A program made the translations under genes and the position numbers. From Tilletia caries (Eukaryota; Basidiomycota; Exobasidiomycetes; Tilletiales; Tilletiaceae), in NCBI GenBank assembly GCA_032718865.1, contig JALUTQ010000038.1, forward strand, positions 744,001 through 808,000: a stretch of DNA of 64,000 nucleotides, read 5' to 3'. This document shows positions 6,770 to 7,343 of the stretch, in pieces. The notes under the pieces were generated by a model that saw nothing but the letters and a program-made list of their open reading frames with translations, had not been told where the DNA came from and ran no database searches. Position 1 is the stretch's first letter; each line of letters begins with the position of its first letter.

Positions 6770-7343
6770 CTAGTGACGAAGGAAAGGACGTCGTGGGGTA
6801 TCTCCACGCAATCGTCGGGCAAGAGCCATGTCAACAGGCATGATCGTCTTCCGTTTGGCATGGGCTGCGGCCACGGCACTGTGATGGGGAGGAAGGTACT
6901 GGAGTTGTCAGCCAAACGTCAAGTCGGTTCGGTTGTCAGACCTGCTGGATACCAACCAATCCTCGAGCAACTCGACGAGATAGTCCTCAGTTGCATCTTG
7001 GATCGCCTCCAACGCCGTGCTCGTATACCGGTAACCTTCGTACCACATGCGCTCGTGCCATTGCCGCGTTCCGGGGGGGCGTGTAATTCTGAGTGATCTC
7101 ACGGACGAGGCGCTGGAAGGGGAGAGCTCCGAGTAGATGCTCCGTGCTACGCTGATAACGTCGTATGTCTCGCAGAACAACTTCGCCAGGACGGGCTTTG
7201 ACTTGGATGATGGGATCGTTCGTATCCTTGCTGTTGGCATCCACCTTCGCAGAAGAAGGGCCGGCCTTACGTGCTTTGGACTTGGGCTTGGGCACGTAAT
7301 TGCCTTGAGAGCGATAACGGGCTACACATTTAGTTCGGGCCAT
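6770..7343 (-). CDS. Divergent histone H3-like protein encoded inside the hAT element (one frameshift)
   Basis: Exon 1 is 7343-6957, intron 6956-6879 (GT...AG), exon 2 is 6878-6770 ending in TAG. The protein starts MARTK, like the H3 tail. It then has a lysine-rich tail, RPGEVVLRDIRRYQRSTEHLL (about 51-71), LPFQRLVREI (74-83), an alpha-2 helix STALEAIQDATEDYLVELLED, and an alpha-3 region AHAKRKTIMPVDMALARRLRG. The alpha1-alpha2 loop is about 11 residues longer than in canonical H3, and the C-terminus has about 10 extra residues. The only break is one surplus base in a run of seven G (7073-7079). With one base fewer, both exons read in a single frame of about 164 residues and the intron sits exactly where lengths match H3. 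Tail-to-tail with the transposase, 120 bp apart. Role unknown; a nucleosomal H3 variant is the family expectation. Whether the frameshift is a real mutation or a sequencing error cannot be told. Confidence 0.88.

Follow-up and report, generated by a model that had tools for sequence, protein, structure and literature searches.

Histone H3 genes carried by DNA transposons of Tilletia and their possible part in escape from H3K9 methylation

The closest described relatives of the system reported here are fungal transposons in which hAT, KDZ and EnSpm/CACTA elements share one kind of chromatin gene, TET/JBP (PMC12730594). This gene has passed between superfamilies, escape from silencing has been proposed as its role, and some of the elements also carry a kinase (PMC12730594). 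The plant Vandal anti-silencing protein and the SET genes of oomycete transposons are likewise cargo that acts on host silencing (PMC12730594), and in giant DNA viruses an invading element brings core histones of its own (PMC9145170, PMC11222145). Here we describe a histone H3 gene carried inside a hAT element in a stretch of 64,000 nucleotides from Tilletia caries (contig JALUTQ010000038.1, positions 744,001 to 808,000; called the window below), together with its relatives in the same genome. In the reading that we consider rather probable, transposon-borne, methylation-proof H3 proteins in several DNA transposon lineages of Tilletia (hAT, KDZ and, by proximity, CACTA) weaken the silencing that depends on methylation of lysine 9 of H3 (H3K9).

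As with TET/JBP, the gene in Tilletia lies within complete elements of several superfamilies, namely hAT and KDZ elements bounded by target-site duplications (TSDs) and, by proximity, CACTA. The TET/JBP cargo is an enzyme that works on methylated DNA and is described from rusts, mushrooms, morels and truffles (PMC12730594); the word Tilletia is absent from that paper, where the word histone occurs four times, in the instances seen for histone modification and SET enzymes. Vandal and oomycete cargo is a regulator or an enzyme (PMC12730594), whereas that of Tilletia is the nucleosome component itself. The giant virus histones form sets that package the viral genome (PMC9145170, PMC11222145), whereas Tilletia has a single H3 type, close to that of the host, in a transposon. 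The laboratory dominant H3K9 alleles (PMC3248561, PMC13079825, PMC5030085) are alike in that residues R8, K9 and K14 matter; they are man-made, whereas the Tilletia ones are natural and lie beside or inside mobile elements, and phenylalanine, tyrosine, histidine or glutamine at position 9 and lysine or glutamine at position 8 go beyond the laboratory alleles compared. Set against TET/JBP, then, the cargo in Tilletia consists of a core histone whose methylation site is altered, and intron-blind searches of the host genome gave no match to a DNA methylase or, with control genomes that were negative too, to TET/JBP. The Vandal anti-silencing protein mentioned above is VANC. No earlier report of a transposon-borne core histone was found in the open-access literature, a scope that leaves most subscription papers outside.

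Histone H3 as transposon cargo

The complete hAT element of the window is 9,034 bp long (positions 2384-11417). As the first-pass annotation had stated, its ends are perfect: both termini read CAGGGCTCGGC, and the 8-bp TSD GTCACTAT stands on either side. Of the hallmarks of the hAT superfamily, the inverted termini, the 8-bp TSD and the C-terminal dimerisation domain of the transposase (PF05699, Dimer_Tnp_hAT) are present, and an intact transposase is absent. A spliced H3 gene lies inside the element on the minus strand, from 7343 to 6770. A second complete copy, at C27:527761-538849, is 11,089 bp long and has a different 8-bp TSD, AGCAGAGG, on both sides. It is 96-98% identical to the window element in large blocks, somewhat rearranged, and its H3 frame is open from start to stop; its transposase is split over two frames. 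This copy was found by protein search, the whole-element DNA search, which scored 39 of 175 candidates, having missed it. The third copy, a decayed fragment on contig C34, is 84% identical and holds part of the H3 gene. The proposal that H3 is hAT cargo is thus borne out by two complete copies with different perfect TSDs and a fragment that keeps part of the gene. Two findings named beforehand as damaging to it, relatives of the gene confined to a fixed host locus and full copies of the element lacking H3, were looked for, and neither overturned its status as cargo.

The first minus-strand frame of the window gene matches the Pfam histone profile PF00125 at 1.8e-10, and the second, with the alpha-2 portion of exon 1, at 1.1e-4, under the curated cut-off (22.8 vs 26.4 bits). 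Exon 2 has no profile match of its own and is based on its translation and on the stretch AHAKRKTIM, shared with T. indica P0004 and T. horrida P0006. The H3 fold had been described as readable throughout. The MARTK start and the quoted stretches are indeed present; a frame break in exon 1 prevents the gene from being read here in a single frame. The intron claimed for the gene exists, with GT-AG borders (Table 1), at the position of the intron preceding the last exon in the host H3 gene L004. An open frame 99% identical to that of the C27 copy is found in the T. laevis database protein P0001, and T. horrida P0006 has only H3 or H3-based structures among its 60 best-listed PDB matches.

We searched the 38.1-Mb genome (40 contigs) with PF00125 in an intron-blind manner and obtained 65 exon matches. 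The loci recognised comprise 29 non-canonical H3 loci, which fall into nine groups, besides two ordinary H3 genes (L004 and L010) and a CENP-A-like gene (L016). Assignment to groups D, E and F was made partly by eye; the type of the window element is called hAT1 below. Nineteen of these 29 loci lie within 6.5 kb of a match to a hAT, KDZ or CACTA (tnp2) transposase, where 1.5 would be expected by coverage, and the hAT list, drawn from one transposase query, is a lower bound. None of the three ordinary H3 and CENP-A-like loci is that close to such a transposase, nor is any of nine further PF00125 loci, whose label "other histone-fold" comes solely from the stretch of the profile that each matches.

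The copy of group A on contig C30 is a 12,218-bp KDZ element (C30:491463-503680) that encloses the H3 gene and has the TSD GTGAGCTG on both sides. The KDZ transposase profile PF18758 matches at 2.6e-45 in the copy on C19 and also at C30:501429-502091; group A combines the transposase and the 8-bp TSD of KDZ elements. The H3 gene and the transposase of this group are 3034, 3047 and 3048 bp apart, and 3887 bp apart in L017, where the KDZ match is partial. Distances in hAT group C are nearly constant as well (1447, 1452, 1480 and 1496 bp). The group A H3 and the T. controversa protein P0145 share 99% identity. Group B, L007 of group E and L012 of group D lie 2.0-5.7 kb from tnp2 matches, and the link to CACTA consists of this proximity, a shared repeat and one CACTG end, that of the group B repeat. 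The C4 copy of the latter (L021, G000:C4:283123-293122) also contains an inserted stretch of about 6.3 kb, judged by eye to be copia-like, that is absent from the C34 copy.

Tail changes, selection and descent

Either arginine 8 (R8) or lysine 9 (K9) is altered in 25 of the 26 readable tails of the non-canonical H3 loci, and K4 is retained in all 26 (Table 1). The count omits L045, L048 and L053, whose exon 1 is lost or outside the fetched piece, and scores the pseudogene L047 (R8K, stop at codon 9) as altered. In groups A, B, C, D, E, G and H, K4 and the stretch S10-G13 are kept while R8 or K9 changes; group G has lost K14 as well. Where tails are ungapped, as they are in seven groups, residues 1-17 carry one or two changes per group, and R8 or K9 is among them every time. 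With the 17 sites taken as equal, this coincidence has a P of about 2e-6; compared with the tails of unrelated, divergent H3s that carry one to three changes, 8 of 30 of which are altered at R8 or K9, P is about 1e-4. Both values assume independent loci or groups, and copies of one family are not independent. The permutation omits groups F and hAT1, whose tails are gapped or highly diverged, and represents group D by its majority tail, though L052 differs. Of the 20 Tilletia-named rows in the best 120 of three protein searches, 19 have a change at R8 or K9. This set includes five distinct T. indica proteins that are as long as ordinary H3, four with K9R and one with K9H. Because altered H3s served as queries, altered rows are favoured and ordinary Tilletia H3 is unlikely at the top, and many of the T. 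controversa rows represent the same families as the present genome.

Several cargo H3s appear to be under purifying selection between lineages. In the KDZ pair L011-L019 the synonymous rate (dS) is 0.64 and the non-synonymous rate (dN) 0.057, a dN/dS of 0.09. Five of six group D pairs have a dN/dS of 0.10-0.13; the sixth, with six changes, has 0.35. The splicing script chose odd sites in two loci with disturbed frames, L006 and L014, of which the latter was kept in the dN/dS calculations and trees and the former was excluded.

Where the cargo H3s have introns, these stand at positions of introns in L004, with the last missing in group B and the first in hAT1. Capture thus took place at the DNA level. 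In a nucleotide tree, L004 and L010 are separated, at a bootstrap value of 93, from a cluster made up of groups A, B, C, D, E, G and H. One capture followed by exchange between elements and several separate captures are both possible origins of this pattern, and the protein tree does not resolve the number of captures. Even with one capture, the tail would have changed more than once, since K9 is altered with R8 kept in some groups and R8 is altered with K9 kept in others.

H3 proteins of the hAT1 type make up a family within Tilletia: the C27 protein falls into one clade (100/100) with seven of the listed proteins, which come from T. laevis, T. indica, T. maclaganii and T. horrida. T. indica and T. 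maclaganii have more than one such H3 each. The excess length of loop 1, put at about 11 residues in the first-pass annotation, is 13 residues relative to canonical H3 in our alignment. Its MWYEGY core is conserved in the four Tilletia species, as ERMWYEGY in six of the seven proteins and EAMWYEGY in one, and conserved residues of the family were noted by eye in the alignment. Among the matches listed, the next after this family are the ordinary H3-like proteins P0008-P0010, at about 44-46%. In group F, loop 1 of L045 is slightly longer. The predicted structure of T. horrida P0006 is of low confidence (predicted local distance difference test score, pLDDT, 62.6), and no conclusion was built on it.

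Possible escape from silencing and its alternatives

In the mechanism that we infer, the cargo H3 would be expressed and then built into nucleosomes by way of the normal H3-H4 chaperones. The altered R8-K9 site is the place that Clr4/SUV39 enzymes methylate to silence transposons, and nucleosomes containing the cargo H3 could neither take up H3K9 methylation nor pass it on. Heterochromatin would then fail to spread by its read-write cycle, and the transposase would stay expressed. Escape from silencing, marking of the element and choice of insertion sites had all been proposed as roles for the window gene; escape is the best supported of them, because H3 recurs beside hAT, KDZ and CACTA transposases and nearly all readable tails are altered at R8 or K9.

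By homology, the host has genes for the H3K9-methylation machinery. Two genes contain pre-SET and SET pieces, with H3K9 methyltransferases such as Clr4 as their best solved relatives, and the genome has one match to the chromo-shadow domain, as in HP1. The DNA methylase profile PF00145 had no match in the whole genome in an intron-blind search, which was positive in 10 of 14 control genomes. The TET/JBP dioxygenase profile PF12851 also had no match in the genome, a weak result, since the control genomes were negative in the same intron-blind search.

The experimental precedents come from two fungi. In Neurospora, ectopic H3 with K9L or K9R, present beside wild-type H3, leads to loss of DNA methylation; R8A abolishes DIM-5 activity in vitro, and K14 changes have a strong effect in vivo (PMC3248561). 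In fission yeast, a single K9R or K14R gene among three blocks the spreading and inheritance of heterochromatin (PMC13079825), K9M traps Clr4 (PMC5030085), and ubiquitin on K14 stimulates Clr4 (PMC8443253).

A number of observations weigh against a silencing function of the cargo. The R8A effect in Neurospora is only partial in vivo (PMC3248561), and a single copy of K9R has a modest effect at pericentric initiation sites in fission yeast (PMC13079825). H3 is assigned to the CACTA set by proximity, and a transposase match is near only one of the six group D loci, one of the three group E loci and neither of the two group F loci. L052 of group D keeps both R8 and K9, as does T. indica P0007. 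Given the shared clade (bootstrap 93), the R8/K9 changes may reflect fewer events than there are groups. Most of the remaining points also favour the main rival explanation, passenger capture with relaxed constraint, according to which H3 genes are picked up by chance, their copies drift unused, and R8 and K9 are unconstrained. Pack-type transposons are known to pick up host exons. In the window copy the frames of both the H3 gene and the transposase are broken, and the hAT1 lineage has no sign of purifying selection between copies over 82 codons: dN is not below dS between the C27 gene and the C34 fragment (dN 0.10, dS 0.07), and the window and C27 genes differ by no synonymous and one non-synonymous change. 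Recent group C copies have one synonymous against four non-synonymous changes in one pair and 1.5 against 7.5 in another, in which the splice of L014 is uncertain; changes in recent copies are too few for selection to be judged. R8 or K9 also differs in 35 of 109 unrelated divergent H3-like proteins, and relaxed constraint may explain part of the pattern. We nevertheless consider passenger capture unlikely. The association with transposases is confined to the non-canonical H3 loci and absent from the other histone-fold loci, it recurs with three transposase types, and the long-term dN/dS between several cargo H3s is about 0.1. The retention of K4 and S10-G13 beside the changing R8/K9 site in seven groups, and the conservation of the long hAT1 loop 1 across four species, are also at odds with unconstrained drift.

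The variant, above all the hAT1 type, might instead be deposited on the element itself to form an element-specific nucleosome that guides the transposase, replication timing or target choice. Loop 1 of CENP-A is part of the deposition determinant and guides its own deposition factor, and the loop 1 extension of hAT1 with its conserved core is suggestive in this respect. This explanation appears more doubtful than passenger capture: loop 1 is of ordinary length or one residue longer in the seven spliced groups, which leaves the general pattern unexplained, and the structural model of P0006 is of too low confidence to help. The H3 genes could also be ordinary paralogues with stage-specific roles in the host, dispersed by transposons or merely near them, as the 10 of 29 loci without a match to the three transposase types within 6.5 kb would allow. 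We think this improbable, given that H3 is enclosed in TSD-bounded elements, that near-identical copies occur on four contigs at a near-constant distance from the transposase, and that two ordinary H3 genes and a CENP-A-like gene exist besides. Derivation of the hAT1 H3 from centromeric H3 was considered on account of its longer loop 1, a feature shared with L016, which we take to be the host CENP-A. L016 occupies another locus and has a loop-1 extension of its own, the hAT1 tail begins with MARTK as in H3, and a tree of H3 and CENP-A, the comparison proposed at the outset, separates the hAT1 clade from L016 (100/100, with L016 as its one CENP-A, on a long branch). On these phylogenetic grounds the hAT1-type H3 is not a CENP-A, and a centromeric origin is very improbable indeed.

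Other features of the window and the meaning of the cargo

The coordinates of the window element and the settings of the groups are collected in Table 1. The kinase region, the second cargo of the window element, is also present in the C27 copy. Repeats of the CTATAGTC type occur near both ends of the element and in its middle. The CAGGGCTCGGC pattern, with at most one mismatch, occurs 11 times in the window, where shuffles give an expectation of 2.0. Other ends of this type (11887, 24518, 25827 and 36325) do not pair by TSD. Two blocks, 28733-29485 and 35776-36325, match the left part of the element at 90-94% identity, and the region 11887-36325 has no PF00125 match. Genome-wide, at least 35 short copies resembling miniature inverted-repeat transposable elements share the left end of the element (for example G000:C5:1933613-1934269), and 31 of them have a right-end match within about 700 bases. 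The nearest other hAT transposases, 43-48% identical and located on C9, C40 and C24, had no histone match nearby in the PF00125 genome search. Long blocks of strong, one-sign GC and AT skew, unlike their surroundings, extend over positions 14001-22000 and 41001-45000 of the window.

Table 1. Features of the hAT element in the window, and the groups of non-canonical H3 loci with their transposon settings and tail changes
Feature	Position	Strand	Basis or setting	Tail change
Left TSD GTCACTAT	2376..2383	.	same 8 bp on both sides	
Left terminal inverted repeat CAGGGCTCGGC	2384..2394	+	end match; also in short copies elsewhere	
hAT transposase frame, one in-frame stop at 6152-6154	4181..6649	+	Dimer_Tnp_hAT 5e-10	
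H3 variant exon 2 (alpha-3, C-terminal extension, stop at 6770)	6770..6878	-	translation	
H3 intron, 78 bp, GT-AG	6879..6956	-	gene model; junction also spanned in the predicted T. horrida protein P0006	
H3 variant exon 1 (tail, alpha-N, alpha-1, long loop 1, alpha-2), frame broken	6957..7343	-	PF00125	K9Y
Block of CTATAGTC-type repeats	7540..8050	.	repeat pairs, motif counts	
Protein kinase, second cargo gene, two overlapping frames	7931..9728	-	Pkinase 8.7e-20 and 1.6e-13	
Right terminal inverted repeat CAGGGCTCGGC	11407..11417	-	end match	
Right TSD GTCACTAT	11418..11425	.	same 8 bp on both sides	
hAT1 copies on C27 and C34				K9H
Group A (L006, L008, L009, L017)			in KDZ repeat	K9R
Group B (L001-L003)			near tnp2 matches, CACTA type	K9R
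Group C (L013, L014, L015, L018; deleted copy L053)			beside second hAT lineage	K9F
Group D (six loci, L012 near)			tnp2 match, CACTA type	K9Q in 4 of 6 loci
Group E (three loci, L007 near)			tnp2 match, CACTA type	R8K
Group F (L045; L046)	G000:C30:729060-729620; G000:C5:2013700-2014100			R8Q and S10Y in L046
Groups G (L011, L019) and H (L005)			3.7-6.2 kb from KDZ matches	R8K (G); K9R (H)
L020				R8K and K9R

The sharper form of the escape reading is that these genes are natural dominant H3 alleles used as weapons, with at least three transposon superfamilies of Tilletia jamming H3K9 heterochromatin by means of a substrate that cannot be methylated; the hAT1 H3 may in addition favour its own element. 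We give this form an even chance of being correct. If so, the cargo would correspond, in a fungus that apparently lacks DNA methylation, to the TET/JBP genes of transposons in rusts and mushrooms, and would be a natural version of the dominant K9 alleles of the laboratory, repeated in unrelated transposons. It would suggest a rule that transposon cargo fits the silencing mark of the host, with TET/JBP countering DNA methylation and K9-altered H3 countering methylation of H3K9. It would also advise caution with counts of H3 genes and H3 variants in fungal genomes, which may include genes that belong to transposons.
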